From the NCBI GenBank assembly GCA_017306415.1, contig JAFKIL010000001.1:868001-932000 (forward strand): a stretch of DNA of 64,000 bases, read 5' to 3'. Both the position numbers and the translations under genes were made by a program. The stretch comes from Microbacterium sp. (lineage in GTDB: Bacteria; Actinomycetota; Actinomycetes; Actinomycetales; Microbacteriaceae). Each line of letters begins with the position of its first letter. The stretch's first letter is position 1. The notes under the pieces are model-generated. The model was not told the DNA's origin and ran no database searches. It saw nothing but the letters and a program-made list of their open reading frames with translations. Below are positions 52,727-64,000 of the stretch, piece by piece.

Positions 52727-52830
52727 CCGCGCACGCCCGCCCACGGTTTCGGGCGCGCGCATCCGTCTCCGTGCACCCAAGATCGTGCGCAAGCGGCCAC
52801 GGGCGCGGGGCGGGGAGGGCGGGCGGCACC

Positions 52831-52836
52831 TACGCT
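52831..52836 (+). promoter_or_regulatory. -10-like box for disrupted ABC-F gene
   Basis: TACGCT, nine bases before the ATG at 52846. A GGGAGGGAC segment lies between, so initiation with a very short leader is likely. Confidence 0.35.
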
Positions 52837-54179
52837 GGGAGGGACATGGCACATCTTCTCGGGGCGGAAGCCCTGCACCTGGACTACCCGACCCGCACCG
52901 TGTTCGACGCGGTGAGCCTCGGCGTCGACGAGGGCGACCGTATCGGCATCGTCGGACGCAACGGCGACGGCAAGTCGAGCCTGCTCGCGATGCTCACCGG
53001 CCGGCGGCAGCCCGACTCGGGCCGCGTGACCGTGCGCGGCGGCGTCCGGATCGGCGTCCTCGAGCAGGAGGACGCCCTGCCCGACGACGAGACGGTCGCG
53101 CACGCGGTCGTCGGCGACGCCGTCGAGCACGAGTGGGCCGGCGACGCACGCGTGCGCGACGTGATCGGCGGCCTGCTCGCCGACGTGCCGTGGGAGGCGA
53201 GCATCGGGACGCTCTCGGGCGGCCAGCGCCGCCGGGTCGCACTCGCGGCCCTGCTCGCGCAGGACCTGGATGTCGTCGCGCTCGACGAGCCGACCAATCA
53301 CCTGGACGTCGAGGGCATCGCGTGGCTCGCCGGGCACGTGAAGCGCCGGTGGACCGCCAACGCCGGTGCGCTCCTCGTCGTCACGCACGATCGGTGGTTC
53401 CTCGACGAGGTGTGCACCGCGACGTGGGAGGTGCACGACCGCACGGTCGACCCCTTCGAGGGCGGGTACGCCGCCTACATCCTGCAGCGCGTCGAGCGTG
53501 ATCGGCAGGCGGCGTCGATCGAGTCGCGCCGTCAGAACCTCGCGCGGCGTGAGCTCGCGTGGCTGCGCCGCGGTGCGCCCGCGCGCACCTCCAAGCCGAA
53601 GTTCCGCATCGACGCCGCGAACGCGCTCATCTCGGACGTGCCGGAGCTGCGCGACCCCATCGCCCTGCGCTCCCTCGCCGTGACGCGGCTCGGGAAGGAC
53701 GTCGTCGATCTCCTGGACGCGTCCGTGACGTACGACGACCCCGACACCGGCGGTGCGCGCGAGGTCCTGCACGACGTGGAGTGGCGCATCGCCCCGGGCG
53801 AGCGCACCGGCATCCTCGGTGTGAACGGCGCCGGGAAGTCGACCCTCCTCGGCCTGGTGGACGGGAGCGTCGTGCCCACCTCGGGGCGCGTCAAGCGCGG
53901 CACGACGGTGCGGGTCGCGGCGCTGAGCCAGCGCATGGACGAACTCGACCAGCACCTCGACGTTCCGGTGCGGATCGTGCTCGAGCGCCTGCGCACCACC
54001 TACACGTTCGGGACGGGGTCCAAGGCGCAGGAGCTCACCCCCGGACAGCTCCTCGAGCGGATGGGGTTCGCCAGCGCGCAGCTGTCGACTCCGGTGAAGG
54101 ATCTCTCCGGGGGACAGAAGAGGCGGCTGCAGCTGCTGCTGATCCTCCTCGAACAGCCCAACGTGCTGATCCTCGACGA

Positions 54180-54194
54180 ACCGAGCACTTCGGT
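54180..54194. other. Inverted repeat spanning the element junction
   Basis: ACCGA-GCACT-TCGGT is a perfect five-base inverted repeat with a five-base centre, placed across the point where native ABC-F coding ends. It may be the crossover site of a site-specific recombinase, or a chance palindrome. Confidence 0.35.
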
Positions 54195-54256
54195 AGTGGG
54201 TTGGGCTTGTCCCCTGATTTTACGGGGTTCTCGGCCTCGGCGGAAGCGCCGTGGCG

Positions 54257-54283
54257 GGTGCGCCGCGGCCTGGTCGGCGCACC
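54257..54283. terminator. Hairpin upstream of the element's ABC-F gene
   Basis: GGTGCGCCG (54257-54265) and CGGCGCACC (54275-54283) form a nine-base-pair stem with a nine-base loop. It could stop transcripts of the broken ABC-F gene, or act as an attenuator for the next gene. The -10-like box at 54305 lies after it, which favours the first reading. Confidence 0.4.
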
Positions 54284-54304
54284 GGGCCCACCCTGTGGCC
54301 TGCC

Positions 54305-54310
54305 TAACCT
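54305..54310 (+). promoter_or_regulatory. -10-like box for the element's ABC-F gene
   Basis: TAACCT, seven bases before the ATG at 54318. No Shine-Dalgarno sequence is present, so the transcript is probably leaderless. Confidence 0.4.
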
Positions 54311-54317
54311 AGAACCG

Positions 54318-56096
54318 ATGGCACATCTGCTTGGGGCCGAAGCCCTGCACCTGGAATACCCGACCCGCGTCGTGTTCGACTCAGTGACGATCGGCGTGAA
54401 CGAGGGCGACCGGATCGGCATCGTGGGCCGCAACGGCGATGGGAAGTCAAGCCTGCTCGGGATGCTGTCGGGACGGATCGAGCCGGACTCCGGCCGCGTG
54501 ACCCGGCGAGGCGGGGTACGGATGGGCGTGCTCGATCAGGGCGACACACTGGACGGCTCCTCGACGGTCGGGCACGCCATCGTCGGCGACCGGGTTGAGC
54601 ACGAGTGGGCAGGCGACGCGAAGGTGCGTGATGTGATCGCGGGCCTCGTTCCTGACATCGCCTGGCACGCGCGGATCAACACACTCAGCGGCGGTCAGCG
54701 TCGGCGGGTTGCTCTGGCGGCTCTGTTGACCGGCGAGTGGGATGTCGTTGCATTGGATGAGCCGACCAACCACCTCGACGTGGAGGGCATTACCTGGCTC
54801 GCTGGACACCTGCGTTCGCGGTGGCCGAGGAATGCGGGTGGGCTGCTGATCGTGACGCACGACCGCTGGTTCCTCGATGAAGTCGCCACGGCGACATGGG
54901 AGGTTCACGACCGGATCGTGGAACCGTTCGAGGGCGGCTACGCCGCCTATGTGCTCCAGCGAGTCGAGCGCGACCGGCAGGCGGCGGCGGTCGAGGCGAA
55001 GCGGCAGAACCTCATGAAGAAGGAACTCGCGTGGCTGCGCCGTGGGGCTCCGGCGCGCACGTCCAAGCCGAAGTTCCGCATCGAGGCGGCCAACCAGCTC
55101 ATCGAGGACGTGCCGCCGCTGCGCGACCGAATCGAGCTGAACCGGCTCGCCGTGGCACGACTCGGCAAGGACGTGGTCGACTTGCTCGACGCAGGCGTGG
55201 TCTTCGACGGCCGCGAGGTCCTGCGCGACATCGAATGGCGCATCGCACCCGGCGAGCGCACCGCGATCCTCGGCGCGAACGGCGCCGGCAAGTCCACCCT
55301 GCTCGGCCTGATCGCGGGGACTATCGAGCCCACGGTCGGGCGGGTGAAGCGCGGCAAGACCGTGAAGCTCGGCGTGCTCGACCAGCAGTTCCGCGAGCTG
55401 GAGGACATCGCCGGCGACCGGGTGCGCGACGTGCTCGCCCGCGCCAAAACGACGTACGTCATCGACGGCAAGGAACTCACCCCGGCTCAGCTCCTCGAAC
55501 GCCTCGGCTTCGCCCGCGAGCACCTGTCCGCCAGAGTCGGGGAGCTCTCCGGCGGGCAGAAGCGGAGACTACAACTACTCCTCGTGCTGCTGTCGGAACC
55601 TAACCTGATGGTGCTAGACGAGCCTTCAAACGATGTTGACACCGACATGCTGGCGGCGATGGAGGACCTGTTCGACTCCTGGCCGGGAACACTCATCGTC
55701 GTATCCCACGACCGCTATCTCGTAGAGCGGATCACCGACCAGCAGTACGCCATCATCGACGGCCGCCTTCGGCATCTGCCCGGCGGAATGGACGAGTACC
55801 TGCGACTGCGGGAGTCAGCGGCGTCTGCGGTCGTCCCACGGGGGTCCGTCCCCGAGCCGAGTGCCGCACGCCTGTCGGGCGCTGAGGAGCGAACCGCGAG
55901 GAAGGAGCTCAGCGCCACCGAGCGCAAGCTGGAACGGCTCTCCGAGCGGATCGCTCGGCTTCACGACCGCATGGCGACACACGATCCGAGCGATTACGAA
56001 GGCATTGGCCGACTGAACGACGAGCTGCGCGACGCTGAGGCCGAGACAGCGACGCTAGAGGAGCGCTGGTTTGAGCTGTCCGAGCTCTTTGGCTGA
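54318..56096 (+). CDS. ABC-F family ATPase, complete copy on the element
   Basis: A 592-residue ABC-F protein with two ATPase domains: Walker A 'GIVGRNGDGKSSLLGMLS' and 'ILGANGAGKSTLLGLIAG', signatures 'LSGGQRRRVALA' and 'LSGGQKRRLQLLL', Walker B 'VVALDEPTNHLD' and 'LMVLDEPSNDVDTD', then a coiled-coil C-terminus ('TERKLERLSERIARLHDRMA') as in Uup. Such proteins act on the ribosome, as translation factors or in antibiotic resistance; which applies here is unknown. It is a close homologue of the truncated gene just upstream and may replace its function. Codon use is somewhat less GC-biased than in the chromosomal copy. Confidence 0.92.
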   Translation: MAHLLGAEALHLEYPTRVVFDSVTIGVNEGDRIGIVGRNGDGKSSLLGMLSGRIEPDSGRVTRRGGVRMGVLDQGDTLDGSSTVGHAIVGDRVEHEWAGDAKVRDVIAGLVPDIAWHARINTLSGGQRRRVALAALLTGEWDVVALDEPTNHLDVEGITWLAGHLRSRWPRNAGGLLIVTHDRWFLDEVATATWEVHDRIVEPFEGGYAAYVLQRVERDRQAAAVEAKRQNLMKKELAWLRRGAPARTSKPKFRIEAANQLIEDVPPLRDRIELNRLAVARLGKDVVDLLDAGVVFDGREVLRDIEWRIAPGERTAILGANGAGKSTLLGLIAGTIEPTVGRVKRGKTVKLGVLDQQFRELEDIAGDRVRDVLARAKTTYVIDGKELTPAQLLERLGFAREHLSARVGELSGGQKRRLQLLLVLLSEPNLMVLDEPSNDVDTDMLAAMEDLFDSWPGTLIVVSHDRYLVERITDQQYAIIDGRLRHLPGGMDEYLRLRESAASAVVPRGSVPEPSAARLSGAEERTARKELSATERKLERLSERIARLHDRMATHDPSDYEGIGRLNDELRDAEAETATLEERWFELSELFG

Positions 56097-56130
56097 TGCG
56101 GACACCGACGAAACAGCAAGTTCAGGAGGG

Positions 56131-56610
56131 CTATCCGTCGAGGTCGACAGGCTTCAGCGGGACGACCAGGACCGGACGGCGTTGACCGTGTACGAGGTGG
56201 TCGGCGACGGAACCGTTGAACAGTTCACGCAGAGTCTCACGCGCTCCTGGGTCCCTTGTGCCGACGACGATCATCGGCGCATCCACACGGTCGGCGAGCA
56301 GTTCGAGTTCGCGGGCTGGGCGACCGGCCAGAGCCTCAACACTCCACTTGACGCCCGTGCCAGCCAAGGCCGCGGCGATCGCCTCCTGCAAAGTGGGATC
56401 GAACCGTTCCCGGCGGCTCTCCGAGCGGTCAGGAGTCAGTGGCAGCGACAGAACCGTCCCATCTGAATCGAACGCGGCGGTGTAGCGAGCAGCGTTCACG
56501 CTCGCGCAGATTAGCTCGGCGTGGAACTGCTGGGCGAATACCGCGGCCGTGGAGAGTACGTCGGCGGCGTGACGAGGGACGACCCCGACGACGATGCGAG
56601 TTGTAGCCAC
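56131..56610 (-). CDS. Universal stress protein (UspA family)
   Basis: A 159-residue protein with the UspA fold: 'TRIVVGVVPRHAADVLSTAA' at the N-terminus and the nucleotide-binding end 'MIVVGTRDPGARETLRELFN' followed by 'GSVADHLVHGQRRPVLVVP'. The GS-V-x-x-x-L-V ending is typical, though the usual G-x2-G spacing is altered. GTG at 56610 is chosen because AAGGAGG lies five bases upstream; ATG at 56640 precedes that site. It is convergent with the ABC-F gene. Confidence 0.88.
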   Translation of the reverse strand: MATTRIVVGVVPRHAADVLSTAAVFAQQFHAELICASVNAARYTAAFDSDGTVLSLPLTPDRSESRRERFDPTLQEAIAAALAGTGVKWSVEALAGRPARELELLADRVDAPMIVVGTRDPGARETLRELFNGSVADHLVHGQRRPVLVVPLKPVDLDG

Positions 56611-56692
56611 GACGACCTCCTTTTGCCCCGACCGACACATGATTGAGGGGTAGGCGGACTTGCCGCCTACCCCTCAAGTCTGCTGGTTGTGT

Positions 56693-57064
56693 CTACGCTC
56701 CGATGGTTGCATACCGGGCCGATTTCATTGCCTCGCTCTGACGACGCACGCGGCGGCGCTCAGCCGCCTCGTGGATGCGGATGCGGAACAGAAGAACGAG
56801 ACTGACCGGCCCAATGATGAGGAACTTGAGCGCGTTCCAAATAAACAGAATCACGAGCAGGTTGAGCCAGCCAGGCCCGCCGTTCGCGATGAGGTTGGTG
56901 CAGATGCTCGCGGCGAGCAGGTACGGGGCGGCAAGGAGCATCGCCGGGATGCCCCATTTGAGGCCGCGGCGTGTGCGGATGAGGTCAAGCAGGATGTTCG
57001 TCGGCATGTAGCGGCGAAGGAAGTAGCGGGTGCGGACGCTTGCCGCCCAGAGCAGTCGAAGCAT
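56693..57064 (-). CDS. Small integral membrane protein
   Basis: A 123-residue protein: a basic, aromatic N-terminus ('LLWAASVRTRYFLRRYMPTN'), then two strong helices ('AMLLAAPYLLAASICTNLIA' and 'LLVILFIWNALKFLIIGPVS') and a basic C-terminus. Closely similar small proteins recur in actinobacterial genomes and are sometimes labelled sulfate permease, but no transporter domain is present. No clear Shine-Dalgarno precedes ATG at 57064. Function unknown. It shares the strand with the USP gene. Confidence 0.65.
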   Translation of the reverse strand: MLRLLWAASVRTRYFLRRYMPTNILLDLIRTRRGLKWGIPAMLLAAPYLLAASICTNLIANGGPGWLNLLVILFIWNALKFLIIGPVSLVLLFRIRIHEAAERRRVRRQSEAMKSARYATIGA

Positions 57065-57225
57065 GGGTTGGGCCTCTCATCAGACGTGTTTCTCCGTCGA
57101 GGAGGCAGAACATGATGAGTGGCCCCGAAGGGACTGTCCCGAAGGACCCGCAGAGATTGGAACGCTGCCTCTGTCCCAAGGGTACGACTTGGTGGCGACA
57201 TTCGTAAGAGGTGCGCCGGCTACGC

Positions 57226-60200
57226 CTACAGGGCCGGCCCGACCCGCTCCGACCCGGTGCGGTGGCTGGGCTCCTGCCCCTGGCGTTCGGCATCGGCGAG
57301 GCTCCGGGCTCGGTCGAGGGCCGCGCGGGCTCGGGCGGCATCGACCTTCTGTGCGTCGCTTTCGGCCGGCGCTCCAAGTGGTGAGGTGTCGGTGACGTTG
57401 TAGCGATCCCGGTAGGCAGCGACGGTGCGGGCGGCCTGCCGCCACGCGAGCGCGGCGCGGGTCTGCTTCGGCTCAGCCCCAAGCGCCGTCGTCCAGCTCT
57501 GGCGCTCGGTGAACGCGGCGACGAGAAGGGCGGCGGCGCGGGCTTCGATGAGGTCGCGGCGTTCGGTGAGCGCCTGCCGGAGCTCGGAGGTCATGGTGCC
57601 GGTCGCTTCAGGGATCATCCCGGCGATCAGTCGCGGGGTCTTGCGCGCGCGCCCGGCGCCGGCGGGCCGTTCCGTGGCCTTGGCGATGCGGTAGTGGAGG
57701 ACCGCGGCGATGTCGTCGGCGTCGGTGAACCCGCGCGCTCGGACGAGGCGCGGCAGCAGCACGTCGACGTTGTGGTGGTTGGCCTCGGCCCGGCGCAGCT
57801 CAGCGGTCAGCGCGCCGAACGCCGGGGAGGAGATCGCGGCCTCTGATTCCTCGTCACTGAGCCCGGAAGCATGGACGAGGTTCGCCCAGCGGTCGTGTTG
57901 GGCGGCAGCGGCGATCGTCTCGTACTCGGCGGCGAGCTGACCGATGTTGGCCCATGCCTCGTGCTCGGCGGTGATGGTTTCGTGGGCGGAGAGCTCGGCG
58001 CCGACGTGCTGCAGAACTCCGAACAGCACCGATCTGGCGGTGGCTTCGATGTTGTCGCCGGGGTGTTGCCCGTCATGTGCAGCGTCGGGCTTGTCGATGG
58101 CGACGTAGGCGAGGTTCGCGTCTCGGCCGCGGGTGAGGGCGACGTACAGGTTCTCCCTCGTCATGGCCGCGTCGACCAGGACGTGCGAGCGGTCGACGGT
58201 GATGCCCTGGGCTCGGTAGGAGGTGACGGCGTAGCCGAGGTCGAGGTGTTCGGCCACGTAGTCGGCCGGGAGCACGACCGAGGCGCCCCACTTGCGGGTT
58301 GCGCGGCGGAGGGTGAGGGAGCCGTCGTCGCGGACGTCGGTGACGGTCCATCGGTCGCCGTTGCGGACCCAGCCGCGGCCGGCGCGCAGGTGCCGGTCGT
58401 TGTGCCGGGTGATGACCGAGTCCCCGACCGCGGCTCTCGTGCCGTCGTGTAGTTCGACCTCGCGCAGCGCGTCCACCGTGCCGTCGAGGACCAGATCGGT
58501 ACGAGCGCGCTGGTTCAACGCGAGGACGGACTCGTTCGAGTCGGTGACCAACACCGTCGCACGTCCCGCAATCCAGTCGGCCCGCCACGCGACGTAGGCG
58601 GCGTCGATCATCGCGTCCGTGTCCCCGCCGGTGATCCGGCCGTGCTCCATGTAGGTGTCGATGACCTCGGTGCGTCCATGCCTGAGGCCGAGCGAGGCGG
58701 CCTTCTCCCACGGGTTCGTGAACCTATGGATGTCGACCAGCTCGGGGGCATCGTCCCGGTCGTGCACGAGCAGCGAGAACGCGCCGCTCGCGGTTGGGGA
58801 CTGGAGCTGGGCGTAGTCCCCGACGAGCAGCACCTTCGCCCCGGCCTCGGCCGCGAGCGCCGTGATGCGGTCCAGGGAGAGCGTGCCGGCCAGGGATGCT
58901 TCGTCCACGATGACAAGCTGCCCGACGCTGAACGTCTCGCCGGTGCGCTCGTGGACCTCCCACCACTTCGCCGTGTTCTCGGTCTGGACGTTCAGGTCAT
59001 CGGCCAACACCTGCGCCGCGACCGCGGACGGCGCGAGCCCGACCACGCTTCCGGGGCCGTGCTCGTGCTCCCACGCCCGCCGCAACGCGCTCATGGCCGT
59101 GGTCTTGCCCGCCCCTGCCGGACCGACCAGGACATCGACGATGCGTCCGGAGACGGCGATCTTCGCCAACGCGCCGGATTGGTCGTCGCCGAGCGTCTGT
59201 CCCTTCCGGTCGGGCCGTGCTGCGATGCGTTCGACGGTGGAGAGTCGGACGGTCGGGCCGGTGGTGGTGCGGGCGCGCTCGAGGAGGCGGTCTTCGGCCG
59301 CCAACAGCACCTCGGAGGAGAACACGGTCGAGTGCTTCGGCCGGAACACGCTCGTCCCGTCCGGCCGCTGGAACACGGTCGGGCTGGTGGCGAGTTCGGG
59401 CGGGGTCAGCCGCAGCGACGCGCCCTCGGCGGCGTCCACCACCAGGCCGACGATCGCCTCGCGATCCTCGACGGTGGCGAACCTGTAGCCCATCGTCTGC
59501 CGGGCGGCCTCAGCGGTCAGGTTCCACCGCCGCCAGGTGGAGCGCTTCTCACCAACCGTCTCGACCACGGACTGGCCGAGCGAGGCGATCACGTCCAGCG
59601 GCACGTCGTCGGCACGCAGCAGCAGCGCCTCCTCATTCGCCGCGACCCCGCGCGCCCACGAGGTCGCGTCGGCTCCGAGAACGCGGCGGGCGCGCGGCCG
59701 CCACGAGGCGGTGAGGTCCGCGAGCGAGTGGACTTCTTTCTCGGGACGGGTGGTGAGGGTGGCTTGGGCGCGGAGCTTCATGATCGTCGCCGGCGCCGGC
59801 CGCCGTCCGTGCTCGGTGACGTACTGCTCGATCAGGCGGTCCGTCTCGACGTCGATGTGCCGTGACCGGGTGGAGAACTCGGTCACCAGTTCCTCCGGCA
59901 CCCCGGCGATCGCCCACGCCGGATTGCGGTCGCGGCCCATGTCGCGGGCCTCCCATGAGAGGCCGAACATGCGGGTCAGGTGGTCGGCGAACACCGCCTC
60001 GTGCAGCTCGGACAAGGCGACGGTCGCCGCGTGCATGGGCCGCCCGTCCAACGACCGCCACTTGCCGTCGAGGACGGTCTGCACCTTGTTCGATATGACG
60101 ACGTGCGTGTGCAGGTGGGGGTCGCCCGCGCGGGAGTCGTAGTGGTCGTAGGCGGTAGCGATGAGCCCGGTCACGTCGACCTGTGCAACCGCGCCGTTGC

Positions 60201-60783
60201 GGCCGGTTGCGCCGGTGCGGGTGGCTGCAACCTCCCGTTCCATGTACGCAACCACCTCCGCAACCGCCGCGTGGTGCGCCTGTCCGATCAGGGCTTGGGT
60301 GCCGGCGTCCGCGACCGCCCACAGCACGGACGCGGACTTGGGGATCGAGAACGTGAAGTCGTATCCCGCAACCGCCCGCCGCGTCCCGCGTTCGGCCTCC
60401 TCGGCCTCGATCGCGGCCACCGCCTCCGCACGCGAGACCGGCCCCAGCGCGGGGTCGAGGTCCGCGACACGCTCAGCGACCCGTTCCGTGGTCGGCTGGT
60501 ACTCGGGGTAGGCGCGGCCCAACGGCGTCCCGGTGATGGGATCGCGGCCCATACCGACGAGGAGCTGAAGTTGGGCTTCGGAGACCTGATCGCCCTCCAT
60601 GATCTGCCCGCCGCCCAGGCCGGCGACACCGGCGCCAAGCCACCGGCCTGGCGGGGTGCCCTCCGCGTTGTAGTACCTCGTCAACGGCGTCGAGAGTGAC
60701 CTGTCGCCGTCCGCCGCGGCCACCGTACGCAGCAGGTACTTATAGCCGTCGCCCGCCGACATGACGCGCATCGAAACCGTCAT
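57226..60783 (-). CDS. MobF-family conjugative relaxase-helicase (TrwC/TraA-like)
   Basis: An 1185-residue protein. The N-terminal relaxase (about 1-330) has 'SAGDGYKYLLRTVAAADG' (catalytic Tyr region) and the metal-binding triad 'DPHLHTHVVISNKVQ'. A RecD-like helicase follows: Walker A 'VGPAGAGKTTAMSALRRA', motif II 'QLVIVDEASLAG', motif III 'LLVGDYAQLQSPTASG' and the late 'YAVTSYRAQGITVDRSHVLV' and 'ENLYVALTRGRDAN'. It nicks oriT and unwinds the transferred strand during conjugation. The C-terminus is helical and charged. ATG at 60783 has GAGG upstream; the next ATG is 60771. Confidence 0.93.
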   Translation of the reverse strand: MTVSMRVMSAGDGYKYLLRTVAAADGDRSLSTPLTRYYNAEGTPPGRWLGAGVAGLGGGQIMEGDQVSEAQLQLLVGMGRDPITGTPLGRAYPEYQPTTERVAERVADLDPALGPVSRAEAVAAIEAEEAERGTRRAVAGYDFTFSIPKSASVLWAVADAGTQALIGQAHHAAVAEVVAYMEREVAATRTGATGRNGAVAQVDVTGLIATAYDHYDSRAGDPHLHTHVVISNKVQTVLDGKWRSLDGRPMHAATVALSELHEAVFADHLTRMFGLSWEARDMGRDRNPAWAIAGVPEELVTEFSTRSRHIDVETDRLIEQYVTEHGRRPAPATIMKLRAQATLTTRPEKEVHSLADLTASWRPRARRVLGADATSWARGVAANEEALLLRADDVPLDVIASLGQSVVETVGEKRSTWRRWNLTAEAARQTMGYRFATVEDREAIVGLVVDAAEGASLRLTPPELATSPTVFQRPDGTSVFRPKHSTVFSSEVLLAAEDRLLERARTTTGPTVRLSTVERIAARPDRKGQTLGDDQSGALAKIAVSGRIVDVLVGPAGAGKTTAMSALRRAWEHEHGPGSVVGLAPSAVAAQVLADDLNVQTENTAKWWEVHERTGETFSVGQLVIVDEASLAGTLSLDRITALAAEAGAKVLLVGDYAQLQSPTASGAFSLLVHDRDDAPELVDIHRFTNPWEKAASLGLRHGRTEVIDTYMEHGRITGGDTDAMIDAAYVAWRADWIAGRATVLVTDSNESVLALNQRARTDLVLDGTVDALREVELHDGTRAAVGDSVITRHNDRHLRAGRGWVRNGDRWTVTDVRDDGSLTLRRATRKWGASVVLPADYVAEHLDLGYAVTSYRAQGITVDRSHVLVDAAMTRENLYVALTRGRDANLAYVAIDKPDAAHDGQHPGDNIEATARSVLFGVLQHVGAELSAHETITAEHEAWANIGQLAAEYETIAAAAQHDRWANLVHASGLSDEESEAAISSPAFGALTAELRRAEANHHNVDVLLPRLVRARGFTDADDIAAVLHYRIAKATERPAGAGRARKTPRLIAGMIPEATGTMTSELRQALTERRDLIEARAAALLVAAFTERQSWTTALGAEPKQTRAALAWRQAARTVAAYRDRYNVTDTSPLGAPAESDAQKVDAARARAALDRARSLADAERQGQEPSHRTGSERVGPAL

Positions 60784-60789
60784 CGCCTC

Positions 60790-60893
60790 TTGTCTCCTGT
60801 CGCTCGTCGGGAAGGTGAGCGACTGACCGCCCGAAGGGCGGGCGACCTCGATCTGCAAGAGGCGTGGTGGCTCAGAGGAGGGGCGGGAGACAA
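60790..60893. other. Candidate origin of transfer (oriT)
   Basis: Just upstream of the relaxase start lie a perfect inverted repeat GTCGCTC-N11-GAGCGAC (60799-60823), a second hairpin CCGCCC-GAA-GGGCGG (60827-60841), and an outer pair TTGTCTCC (60790-60797) / GGAGACAA (60886-60893). oriT sequences of MobF elements usually lie next to the relaxase gene and contain such repeats beside the nic site. No nic consensus could be assigned. Confidence 0.4.
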
Positions 60894-61023
60894 GGGCGGC
60901 GGCCGGTCGGCGGGGGCGATCTGGCCGGCTGTGGGAGGGCGTCGAGCACCTGCCGGGTGACCAGCCCGGTCAGGAGTCTCAGCGAGGACGACGGCCGGGG
61001 ATCACCGATCTGCCGGAGTCCTC

Positions 61024-62112
61024 ATGTACGAAGCCAGCGGCGCGAACAACGACCATCGCCTGCGGATCGGGTCGCTGTTCTCCGGCTACGGCGGACTCGA
61101 CCTCGCCGTCGAGCAGGTCTTCGACGCCCACACGATCTGGTTCTCCGAAATCAACGAACCCGTCGCCCGCGTCTTCGCCCATCACTGGCCCGCCGTCCCG
61201 AACCTGGGCGACATCACCGCGATCGACTGGAGCACGGTCGAACCGGTCGATGTACTTTGCGGCGGCTTCCCCTGCCAGGACGTCTCCACGGTCGGGAAGA
61301 TGGCCGGCCTCGCACCCGGCACCCGATCCGGCCTGTGGACGCACATGGCAGCGGCGATCGATGCGCTGCAACCCGAATGGGTCGTCATCGAGAACGTCCG
61401 CGGGCTGCTCTCCGCACTTGCCGTTCGCGTGACCACGGAAGGAGACGACGATGAACGACGCAACCCCGATGCCGCAACCCCCGGCGATGCAACCCGTCGC
61501 GGTGTGGAACCCGACCCGTGGGGTCTGGGAGACAAGCCAGCCCGACCTCTTCGGGCGCTTGGCGCCGTACTCGGAGACCTGGCCGACCTCCGGTATGACG
61601 CACGATGGCTCGGCCTATCCGCTTCCGCGATCGGCGCACCGCATCCCCGGTTCCGCATCTTCATCCTGGCCCGCCGCGCTCTTCCGCACCCCCTTGGCAT
61701 CAGACTCGGCCAGGGGTGGCGAGACACTAGCCCACGTCAAGGCGCGACGGGGCACGATCGCCCTGAGTCACCAGGTGATCGACCTCGTGACCAGACACGA
61801 TCGGCAGCCTTCGCCGGAGGCGACATTCGTGTTGATCGAGGAGTTCTTCGACGCTGGGGACGCTACGCCCTCGCCATCGCCCGATGGGAACGCATCACTG
61901 GCCGATCCGCCCCAGCTCCCGCCATCCTGAACGAGGACGCGGGTCCGCGGCCTGCACCCGCCTTTGTGGAATGGCTCATGGGGTTGCCGGGCGGATGGGT
62001 GACCGACCCTTCGCTCTGCCTGACGCATCCGCAGCAGCTCACCGCCCTGGGGAACGGCGTCGTGCCGCGCCAGGCGGCGTGTGCTCTCGGCACACTGAGG
62101 CACTGGACGTGA
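61024..62112 (+). CDS. DNA (cytosine-5-)-methyltransferase
   Basis: A 362-residue C5-methyltransferase. 'IGSLFSGYGGLDLAVEQVF' is motif I (SAM binding), 'VLCGGFPCQDVSTVGK' motif IV with the catalytic Cys near residue 85, 'WVVIENVRGLL' motif VI, 'GAPHPRFRIFILARR' motif VIII, and 'TALGNGVVPRQAACALG' motif X. The target-recognition part is short and Arg/Asp-rich. No matching restriction enzyme is near, so it is probably an orphan that protects the element from host restriction. From 61451 to 61930 the same DNA encodes a second protein in another frame. It ends three bases from the convergent ABC gene. Confidence 0.92.
   Translation: MYEASGANNDHRLRIGSLFSGYGGLDLAVEQVFDAHTIWFSEINEPVARVFAHHWPAVPNLGDITAIDWSTVEPVDVLCGGFPCQDVSTVGKMAGLAPGTRSGLWTHMAAAIDALQPEWVVIENVRGLLSALAVRVTTEGDDDERRNPDAATPGDATRRGVEPDPWGLGDKPARPLRALGAVLGDLADLRYDARWLGLSASAIGAPHPRFRIFILARRALPHPLGIRLGQGWRDTSPRQGATGHDRPESPGDRPRDQTRSAAFAGGDIRVDRGVLRRWGRYALAIARWERITGRSAPAPAILNEDAGPRPAPAFVEWLMGLPGGWVTDPSLCLTHPQQLTALGNGVVPRQAACALGTLRHWT
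61451..61930 (+). CDS. Overlapping (overprinted) gene inside the methyltransferase gene
   Basis: A 159-residue protein read in a different frame entirely within the methyltransferase gene. ATG at 61451 has a strong AAGGAG exactly six bases upstream. Over 61501-61620 this frame has 35 of 40 codons ending in G or C, against 25 of 40 for the methyltransferase frame, so codon bias here favours the inner frame. 'VWNPTRGVWETSQPDLFGRL', 'APYSETWPTSGMTHDGSAY', 'LFRTPLASDSARGGETLA' and 'RRGTIALSHQVIDLV' look like ordinary protein, and I believe such blocks recur beside phage and plasmid methyltransferases. Function unknown. Confidence 0.65.
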   Translation: MNDATPMPQPPAMQPVAVWNPTRGVWETSQPDLFGRLAPYSETWPTSGMTHDGSAYPLPRSAHRIPGSASSSWPAALFRTPLASDSARGGETLAHVKARRGTIALSHQVIDLVTRHDRQPSPEATFVLIEEFFDAGDATPSPSPDGNASLADPPQLPPS

Positions 62113-62114
62113 AG

Positions 62115-63464
62115 CTACCCTTCGGCATCGCCGTCCATCAGCGTTGATGTAAGCGCTGCGGCGACTTCAGACAAGACCAGTTCTCCGGTGTTGGCGTCGT
62201 AGTCGAACAGTTCGCCGTAGCGCCCCCAGTCGATAGCGATGTCGAGTTGCTTTTCGGTGTCCTCGGCGTTGTAGCCGCGGCGCAGCAGGTCGCGGAAGAA
62301 GTCGTCGCGGAGGGCGCCGTCGTTGCTGTTCTCCAACGCCTTCACGATGGTCTTGACGAGGGGAGCGTGTTCGACGGCGAGGCCGGCGAACATCTCCTTG
62401 GAGCGCTGGATGTCGGCGGTGTACCAGGCGCGCCCTACCTCGGTGAGGAATGCCTGAGCGCCTTCCACTTCGAGAAGCCCCAGCATCCGTGCGGCGTCGA
62501 CCAGCGGCAGCAGGTCGTCGACCTCAAAGGAGAGCTCGTCGGCGAGGTCAGGCAGGTCTGATTGGCCGTCGTGGGCATAGACGATCTCGACCAGGCCGGC
62601 GAGTCCGCCGACACTGGCGTCAGGTAGCGGATGAGTGAGGGGTCCCGGCGTGGCGGCGCGTTCTGCGGCAGACTTCTCGTCGCGGCCGGTGAGGATCGCG
62701 TAGAGCCGGTCAACGGCCGCCTCGAAGGTGGGGCTGCGCCGGTCGCGGGGACGTGGCAGCAGGATCGGGACTTCGGCCTTGATGTGGCCGGGGTTGGAGC
62801 CCAGCACGAGCACCCGGTCGGCGAGGAGGACGGCCTCTTCGATGTTGTGGGTGACGATGCAGATGCACTTGGTGGGAAAGTCCGGCTGCGCCCACAGGGA
62901 GATGAGCTCGCCGCGCAGGTTCTCGCTGGTGAGGACGTCGAGGGCGGAGAACGGCTCGTCCATGAGGAGCACGTCGGGCTGGAGGACCAGGGCACGGGCG
63001 AAGCCGACCCGCTGGCGCATCCCGCCGGAGAGCTCGCGGGGGTAGGCGCTCTCGAACCCGTCAAGGCCGATCTGGTCGATGGCGTCGAGTGCGCGCTGGC
63101 GGCGTTCCTTCTCGGGGACGCCGGCGGCGCGCAGGCCGAGCTCGACGTTGTCTTGCACGCTCAGCCACGGCATGAGCGCGAAGGACTGGAACACCATCGC
63201 CGTGCCGGGGTTGGCGCCGTTCAGTGGCGTGCCGCGGTAGCGGATGTCGCCGCTCGTGGGTGCGATCAGGCCTGCGATGGTGCGCAGCAGTGTGGACTTG
63301 CCGGAGCCGGACTTGCCGAGCAGGGCGACGACCTCACCTTCGTGCAGTGTGACCGATACGTCATCGAGGACGTGCAGAGTCGAGCCGTCCGCAGAGGGGA
63401 ACGACTTGGAGACATGCTCGGCCTCGATCAGCGCGGTGCGGATCGGGACGGTCGTGGCGGCCAT
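62115..63464 (-). CDS. ABC transporter ATPase, nitrate/sulfonate type, with AAA-associated C-terminal domain
   Basis: A 449-residue protein. Residues 1-265 are an SsuB/NrtD-like ATPase: Walker A 'VVALLGKSGSGKSTLLRTIA', Q-loop 'AMVFQSFALMPWLSVQDNVE', signature 'ELSGGMRQRVGFARA' and Walker B 'VLLMDEPFSALDVLT'. Residues 300-449 form an extra domain ('ASVGGLAGLVEIVYAHDG', 'AFLTEVGRAWYTADIQRSKE', 'DDFFRDLLRRGYNAEDTE') of the AAA-associated type found on some nitrate/sulfonate/bicarbonate transporters, probably regulatory. It follows the permease gene on the same strand, 36 bases apart. The substrate cannot be assigned. Confidence 0.9.
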   Translation of the reverse strand: MAATTVPIRTALIEAEHVSKSFPSADGSTLHVLDDVSVTLHEGEVVALLGKSGSGKSTLLRTIAGLIAPTSGDIRYRGTPLNGANPGTAMVFQSFALMPWLSVQDNVELGLRAAGVPEKERRQRALDAIDQIGLDGFESAYPRELSGGMRQRVGFARALVLQPDVLLMDEPFSALDVLTSENLRGELISLWAQPDFPTKCICIVTHNIEEAVLLADRVLVLGSNPGHIKAEVPILLPRPRDRRSPTFEAAVDRLYAILTGRDEKSAAERAATPGPLTHPLPDASVGGLAGLVEIVYAHDGQSDLPDLADELSFEVDDLLPLVDAARMLGLLEVEGAQAFLTEVGRAWYTADIQRSKEMFAGLAVEHAPLVKTIVKALENSNDGALRDDFFRDLLRRGYNAEDTEKQLDIAIDWGRYGELFDYDANTGELVLSEVAAALTSTLMDGDAEG

Positions 63465-63500
63465 GAGGGTTCACGTCCTTTCACTGGTCGATGGGCGAGG

Positions 63501-64000
63501 TCAGGTGAGGGAGAAGCGGCGCTCGGCGTAGTCATAGAGGCGTCGCCAAAACAGCCTGTTGAGGCCAACGACGAAGATGCTCATCACCGTGACCCCGACG
63601 AGGGTCTTGCCGAAGTCGCCATCTGCGGTGGATTGGGCGATATAGGCGCCGAGCCCTGCGGCGGTGAGGGTGGTGTGCCCGTAGGAGACGACCTCGGCGA
63701 CAATTGAGGCGTTCCACGCGCCGCCGGCGGCGGTGATGCCGCCGGTGACCCAGGAGGCGAAGATTGCCGGCCCGTACAGGTTGCGCCACTTCTGGACGCG
63801 ATTGAGCCGCAGGTTGGTGGCGGCCTCGCGCAGATCATTCGGGATCGCCGCGGCGCCGGCGATGACGTTGAACAGGATGTACCACTGCGCGCCGAGGGCC
63901 ATCAGGAAGATGCCGCCAACGTTGAGGCTGACGCCGGACCAGATCAGGGCCAGGGTGAAGAACGGGAACAGGAAGTTCGCCGGGAACGACGCGAGGACCT
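63501..64000 (-). CDS. ABC transporter permease, C-terminal part (start outside window)
   Basis: About 165 codons of a permease continuing past the right edge. The visible part has helices at 'NFLFPFFTLALIWSGVSLN' and 'IFLMALGAQWYILFNVIAGA', then the cytoplasmic EAA loop ('LREAATNLRLNRVQKWRNLY', with the conserved E-A-A...G pattern partly kept as 'YGPAIF') that contacts the ATPase. Type I importer permease of the nitrate/taurine class. The preceding part is outside, so total length and any fusion cannot be judged. Confidence 0.85.
   Translation of the reverse strand, partial: VLASFPANFLFPFFTLALIWSGVSLNVGGIFLMALGAQWYILFNVIAGAAAIPNDLREAATNLRLNRVQKWRNLYGPAIFASWVTGGITAAGGAWNASIVAEVVSYGHTTLTAAGLGAYIAQSTADGDFGKTLVGVTVMSIFVVGLNRLFWRRLYDYAERRFSLT

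Follow-up and report, generated by a model that had tools for sequence, protein, structure and literature searches.

The locus described here raises the question of whether one stretch of actinobacterial DNA encodes two different proteins in the same bases and, if so, what the second protein does. The window, i.e. the whole analysed stretch of 64,000 nucleotides from a Microbacterium sp. contig, carries on its forward strand a gene for a C5-cytosine DNA methyltransferase (61024–62112, 362 amino acids; alpha). A preliminary description had drawn attention to a 159-codon frame inside this gene, and such a frame was indeed found at 61451–61930 of the same strand, shifted by +1 and wholly nested in alpha (beta). 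Its suggestion that two real proteins are read from the same DNA is borne out by homologues in a fixed register, a codon null model, substitution classes, reduced divergence at fourfold sites and the start signal; on these grounds, the inner frame is confirmed from sequence comparison as a real protein-coding gene. With a probability of roughly 85%, we regard it as an independently started gene that encodes the beta subunit of a two-chain C5-cytosine DNA methyltransferase, in which alpha would supply motifs I–VIII and, in this case, IX–X, and beta the small-domain or target-recognition part.

The outer frame was assigned based on several profile and structure matches. Residues 14–131 of alpha match PF00145 (E 7.5e-31, Pfam search), residues 13–129 match M.HhaI structures (E 2.2e-11) and the whole protein matches phrog_363 (E 1.4e-65, PHROGs), while the score against NCBIfam TIGR00675 (100.4) lies slightly below the cut-off of 100.65. 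By its PF00145 catalytic domain with motifs I, IV and VI, alpha is a C5-cytosine DNA methyltransferase. Along the protein, we distinguish segments that we take to be motifs I–VI, a motif VIII region and an end resembling motifs IX–X. The motif VIII region was located by a profile match at about 61531–61671 (outer-frame sequence GAPHPRFRIFILA), on DNA shared with the inner frame as the preliminary description had proposed. The motif IX–X-like C-terminal module follows in the alpha frame at 61849–62109, and only a short variable stretch separates motif VIII from motif IX in the window alpha.

The conserved core of the inner protein (61490–61711, + strand) overlaps the motif VIII region of alpha and shows the residues W-N-P ... 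W-E-T ... E-T-W-P-T-S-G-M ... Y-x-L-P ... P. This core matches positions 62–149 of phrog_1008 (E 1.6e-12), and the C-terminal module of the outer frame matches positions 230–317 (E 9e-30), so that the two frames hold different stretches of one family. At E up to 1, neither Pfam nor NCBIfam contained a family matching the inner protein, and PADLOC gave no match; a hidden HNH nuclease and a known defence protein, respectively, were rejected as its identity on these results.

A tblastn search with the inner protein returned 181 phage records and 6 plasmid records, and the best plasmid homologue is annotated as a hypothetical protein (WP_187326295.1, plasmid NZ_CP072877.1). Loci were collected in sets of 35 viral, 35 genome, 80 of 102 viral and 80 of 171 viral records, the last set with the Methylorubrum inner domain as query; since some contigs were fetched twice, we counted 190 distinct loci for the codon null model and 265 for the comparison of layouts. 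In 238/239 loci (190 distinct; mostly fetched with the inner frame), the inner-domain match falls on the motif VIII match in the +1 frame; the single exception (L155) had been retrieved because its N part is similar at the DNA level. Because this first set was mostly found through the inner frame, further loci were retrieved with a query restricted to the N-terminal part of the outer protein. Among the 80 viral loci obtained in this way (best 80 of 588), 74 show the inner domain in this register, as do all five readable loci fetched with P0002, giving 79/85 in combination; four loci without an N match (three on the other strand, as the + strand was scanned, and one with the C part only) lie outside these 85. 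The six exceptions comprise two loci with a +1 open reading frame having LPTP and motif-IX-like ends and no inner-profile match (L309, L320), a one-chain alpha-like enzyme that lacks the inner domain (L278) and three conventional-looking enzymes (L304, L319, L325). The preliminary description had named a lack of homologues together with stops in related genes as the outcome that would speak against an inner gene, and the opposite was observed. The stop count as such (0/190 distinct loci with a stop in the inner frame) is biased because the loci were found through an open inner frame, and we do not rely on it.

We then compared how the parts of the enzyme are distributed over the two frames. 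The 265 distinct loci were divided into 74 of layout A, 78 of layout B, 95 of layout E and 18 that stayed unresolved, some of them at contig ends or with broken frames. In layout A, which includes the window, alpha holds motifs I–VIII and IX–X, and beta consists of the inner domain only and is nested in alpha in 74/74 loci. In layout B, alpha holds motifs I–VIII and beta the inner domain followed by IX–X, with beta extending beyond alpha in 60 loci. In layout E, alpha holds I–VIII and X and beta the inner domain and IX; beta is nested in 91/95 of these loci, and its motif IX overlaps the motif X of alpha in a different frame in 88/95. At least 13 changes between the three labels are needed on a quick tree of 103 loci, a poorly resolved tree (103 of 218 rows, 121 columns) on which recombination or mislabelled weak matches could inflate the count.

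Several minor features accompany these layouts. LPTP-type repeats, which in many betas come after the inner domain, are found in the alpha frame after position 2700 of the locus of phage DLane (L159) and also after motif X in the B-type betas L032, L128 and L101. Four loci of the genome_contigs set (L042, L050, L067, L069) show their IX–X match in a frame other than that of alpha or beta, and these copies are thus either decayed or affected by sequencing errors.

A further arrangement was found on Vibrio and Alteromonas plasmids, where a single chain (L334, 1587–2831, and L338–L346; 10 aligned) runs through motifs I–VIII and X and then into a beta-like tail with motif IX at its end. This tail was matched by 31 plasmid records. 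In a profile-profile comparison, the E-type betas matched it from the WPRSG stretch on with a probability of 97.0 (E 9.9e-11), in contrast to a probability of 0.1 for the control against the rest of the Vibrio/Alteromonas protein. With the Vibrio tail as a single sequence, the motif IX part scored 19.7 bits (shuffles up to 5.0), and the part upstream of motif IX was not significant (−1.0 bit; shuffles up to 10.4). The motif order of these chains corresponds to a natural permutation, unlike the BssHII type as described in PMC5944983.

In single-chain C5 enzymes, the target-recognition domain sits between motifs VIII and IX (PMC3404938, PMC5944983), and enzymes split after motif VIII, ahead of the recognition domain, are described as complementing well (PMC5944983). 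In the window, alpha would perform cofactor binding and catalysis (I–VIII) and also contribute IX–X, and beta would provide the small-domain or target-recognition part that is missing from alpha between VIII and IX. Beta would thereby complete the small domain and help to choose the target, because it is co-encoded with alpha, is fused to IX or IX–X elsewhere and follows alpha within one chain in the Vibrio type, and because the window alpha has just the short variable stretch at this place. The two chains would be expected to bind each other, with beta reading the DNA target. The idea of the preliminary description that the inner protein might assist the methyltransferase is supported by the same fusions and by the beta-like tail behind alpha on the Vibrio/Alteromonas plasmids. 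Structure prediction did not confirm the target-recognition role of beta: AlphaFold gave weak models both for the inner protein (pLDDT 70.7, pTM 0.37) and for a B-type beta (pLDDT 69.7, pTM 0.38), their best Foldseek hits in the PDB had E values of 1.9 and 0.82, with no match below 0.8, and the inner-domain profile A1 matched no solved structure at E up to 1.

The inner frame could also encode a separate protein that is merely housed in the methyltransferase gene, such as a regulator, an anti-restriction protein or a hidden homing nuclease of the ShiLan kind. In the window variant, beta indeed lacks motif IX, which is the defining part of the small chain of M.EcoHK31I and whose absence counts against a beta subunit, and an HNH gene concealed within a phage methylase gene has been published (PMC11855218). 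Such a protein is nevertheless improbable, as the inner domain belongs to a methyltransferase chain in the B and E loci and to phrog_1008 ("DNA methyltransferase"), is matched by no Pfam, NCBIfam or PADLOC entry and overlaps the motif VIII region instead of forming an insert. The published ShiLan domain is a mobile insert that encodes an HNH endonuclease in an out-of-frame ORF of an actinophage methylase gene (PMC11855218). The inner gene differs from it by its fixed, non-inserted overlap and by showing no nuclease match. Phage ShiLan itself (NC_041988.1) has an inner-domain match under its own methyltransferase feature, and the accessible text of PMC11855218 makes no mention of the alpha-beta overlap.

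How beta would be translated was examined based on the start signals. As the preliminary description had noted, a well-spaced Shine-Dalgarno site precedes the inner gene of the window (AAGGAG, 61439–61444, + strand, 6 nt before the ATG). A match of 6–7 nt, AAGGAG(G), before an inner-frame start was found in 29/33 near relatives including the window, a set that contains near-copies. Among these relatives, the inner start and its Shine-Dalgarno site lie about −45, −30 or −24 from the inner domain, so that start and signal shift together. Over the whole set, the signal fades, with a match of 5 nt or more in only 34/74 A, 10/78 B and 6/95 E loci, which counts against a beta started in this way throughout. 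A programmed frameshift, in which ribosomes slip from alpha to produce an alpha-beta fusion and no free beta, would fit the constant +1 phase and the B and E loci with a Shine-Dalgarno match of 0 or no start (36/78 and 52/95, respectively). We nevertheless give little credence to this mechanism because the window and most of its near relatives possess a strong start signal, which is kept at moving positions, and because a slip before the overlap would remove motif VIII from that chain, whereas motif VIII is kept.

Whether the inner frame itself is maintained was assessed on the codon level. The GC3 contrast over 61501–61620 given in the preliminary description (35/40 inner against 25/40 outer codons) was largely reproduced, with 34/39 whole codons in the inner and 25/40 in the outer frame. 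This bias is weak evidence because inner GC3 is outer GC1, which amounts to 35/40 over the same stretch. The open inner frame is weak evidence as well, since, when the outer codons of the window were synonymously reshuffled 2000 times, the inner core remained open in about 66% of the trials; GC3 and the open frame alone would not have been enough to establish an inner gene. The reshuffled sequences were scored with an inner-domain profile trained only on B-labelled loci, these labels following a looser rule than the layout comparison and including some E-type loci. For the A loci, the real inner score exceeded all 100 own reshuffles in 60/60 distinct loci (mean 86.7 versus 19.9 bits), and in the window, the real score of 85.8 bits compares with a maximum of 62.6 in the 2000 reshuffles.

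Substitutions in 23 near relatives (246 pairs, which are not independent) show the constraint on both frames. Changes that are non-synonymous in both the outer and the inner frame reach 0.18 of expectation, as compared to 1.52 for outer-non-synonymous/inner-synonymous and 1.68 for outer-synonymous/inner-non-synonymous changes. The third frame shows no such avoidance (1.04 for changes non-synonymous in outer and third frame) and contains stops in 23/23 relatives. Mean identity is 0.745 in the outer, 0.732 in the inner and 0.617 in the third frame. Differences at fourfold sites, determined for 26 loci, amount to 0.079, 0.265 and 0.319 in the three stretches of the overlap; outside it, the values are higher (N part, 0.417; IX–X part, 0.672). 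At the level of sequence, these comparisons demonstrate that both frames are conserved as proteins and under purifying selection. A shadow ORF, i.e. inner conservation as a by-product of conserved motif VIII residues and biased codons with no product, is very improbable. In its favour, a GC content like this one often yields open frames as long as the inner one, many reshuffles stay open, and the conventional enzyme L332 gives a weak inner-profile match judged to be such a shadow; against it, the codon null never attains the real scores, doubly non-synonymous changes are depleted, fourfold divergence is lower, the start signal is found at shifting positions and the same domain is fused to IX or IX–X in its own frame.

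Two-chain enzymes with which a beta subunit can be compared have precedents. M.EcoHK31I has the target YGGCCR, and Lee et al. reportedly described in 1995 that its beta is read from another frame inside the alpha gene. The window shares this trait, with 61451–61930 nested in 61024–62112, and the same holds for 74/74 A loci. Two-chain C5 enzymes as such are already known from M.AquI and M.EcoHK31I (PMC3404938); the latter is described as two chains forming one C5 enzyme, with I–VIII and X in alpha and IX in beta. The E-type relatives (95/265 loci) share this layout, with IX in beta and X in alpha, as judged by the published description. In contrast, the window has IX–X in alpha and the inner domain only in beta, so that its small chain carries no motif IX. 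In addition, according to PMC3404938, alpha is the chain of M.EcoHK31I with the predicted target-recognition domain, whereas in the window we assign it to beta. Based on this comparison, M.EcoHK31I is the nearest known system, and we treat the window as a variant with motif IX in alpha and do not file it as a member. M.AquI likewise consists of two chains, with a distal variable region and IX–X in beta (PMC3404938), and the B-type relatives (78/265) resemble it in having IX–X in the second polypeptide. The window is unlike M.AquI in that IX–X lie in alpha; its own frames overlap over motif VIII. The PHROGs entries phrog_1008 and phrog_363 (phage DNA methyltransferases) are whole-protein families, and the entries are silent on an overlap.

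The breadth of the overlap was sampled with eight further loci, seven on plasmids picked by alpha similarity (132 plasmid records match alpha) and one in an E. coli prophage picked by DNA. A clear +1 overlap was found in Leptospira, the archaeon Methanomethylovorans, Halotia, Ca. Megaera and the E. coli prophage, and a weak one in Paenibacillus. The Clostridioides enzyme is conventional, its weak inner match being judged a shadow, and the Vibrio enzyme among the eight shows no overlap. The +1 overlap is shared by loci of Actinomycetota, Alphaproteobacteria, Cyanobacteriota and Spirochaetota, an E. coli prophage and a methanogen plasmid. We lean slightly towards the view that this is one conserved overlap, with the beta recognition domain over alpha motif VIII and, in E loci, IX over X, which would rank among the most widespread overlapping gene pairs of prokaryotes; the IX–X module would move between frames because it is functional in either chain, and the overlap would hold the subunits together in horizontal transfer. 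The literature searched, which included few subscription papers, yielded no paper on this overlap and no description of its breadth or of the switching of IX–X between frames. Well-supported long overlaps of genes on the same strand are rare in prokaryotes, and the frame switching of IX–X represents a natural experiment in cutting and re-joining an enzyme.

The alpha frame is broken in the E. coli prophage and on a Microbacterium plasmid. In the prophage (L337, 1880–2641), where the methyltransferase carries a pseudogene annotation and alpha has an internal stop in the record, the beta frame (inner domain and motif IX) is open. On the Microbacterium plasmid NZ_CP072877.1 (L037, 2551–3599), alpha is interrupted in its N part, beta is intact, and beta is the only one of the two that is annotated. 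This intact beta beside a broken alpha, like the alpha-like enzyme of L278 that lacks the inner domain, speaks against the subunit reading.

The usual annotation omits or shortens the inner gene. In phage TaylorSipht (L038), gene 41 is annotated from locus position 2256, and the domain begins near 1974, about 90 codons earlier; in phage RitaG (L039), a single methylase feature covers the overlap. If beta sets the target, the specificities of many phage and plasmid methyltransferases would not be recoverable by cloning the annotated frame alone.

The genomic context points to a mobile element. Next to the pair and divergent from it, the window encodes a TrwC/MobF-type relaxase-helicase (57226–60858, − strand; Pfam TrwC, E 6.1e-91), which suggests a role of the pair in protecting such an element. 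A related relaxase lies beside the methyltransferase in 30/327 loci compared, a count that includes 22/35 loci of the genome_contigs set. Apart from the genome of the window, 6/57 related genomes contain P0002, a distribution that suggests a mobile unit. No restriction gene was recognised in 56080–64000, where the open frames were scanned in part. We infer that the pair is an orphan enzyme shielding an entering element: alpha and beta would methylate their conjugative element and so protect it from restriction. The proposal of the preliminary description that the inner protein counters host defence is possible only indirectly, via this self-methylation. Further upstream, the window contains two similar ABC-F-like ATPase genes in tandem (52785–56096, + strand), the first of which appears truncated at its C-terminus.
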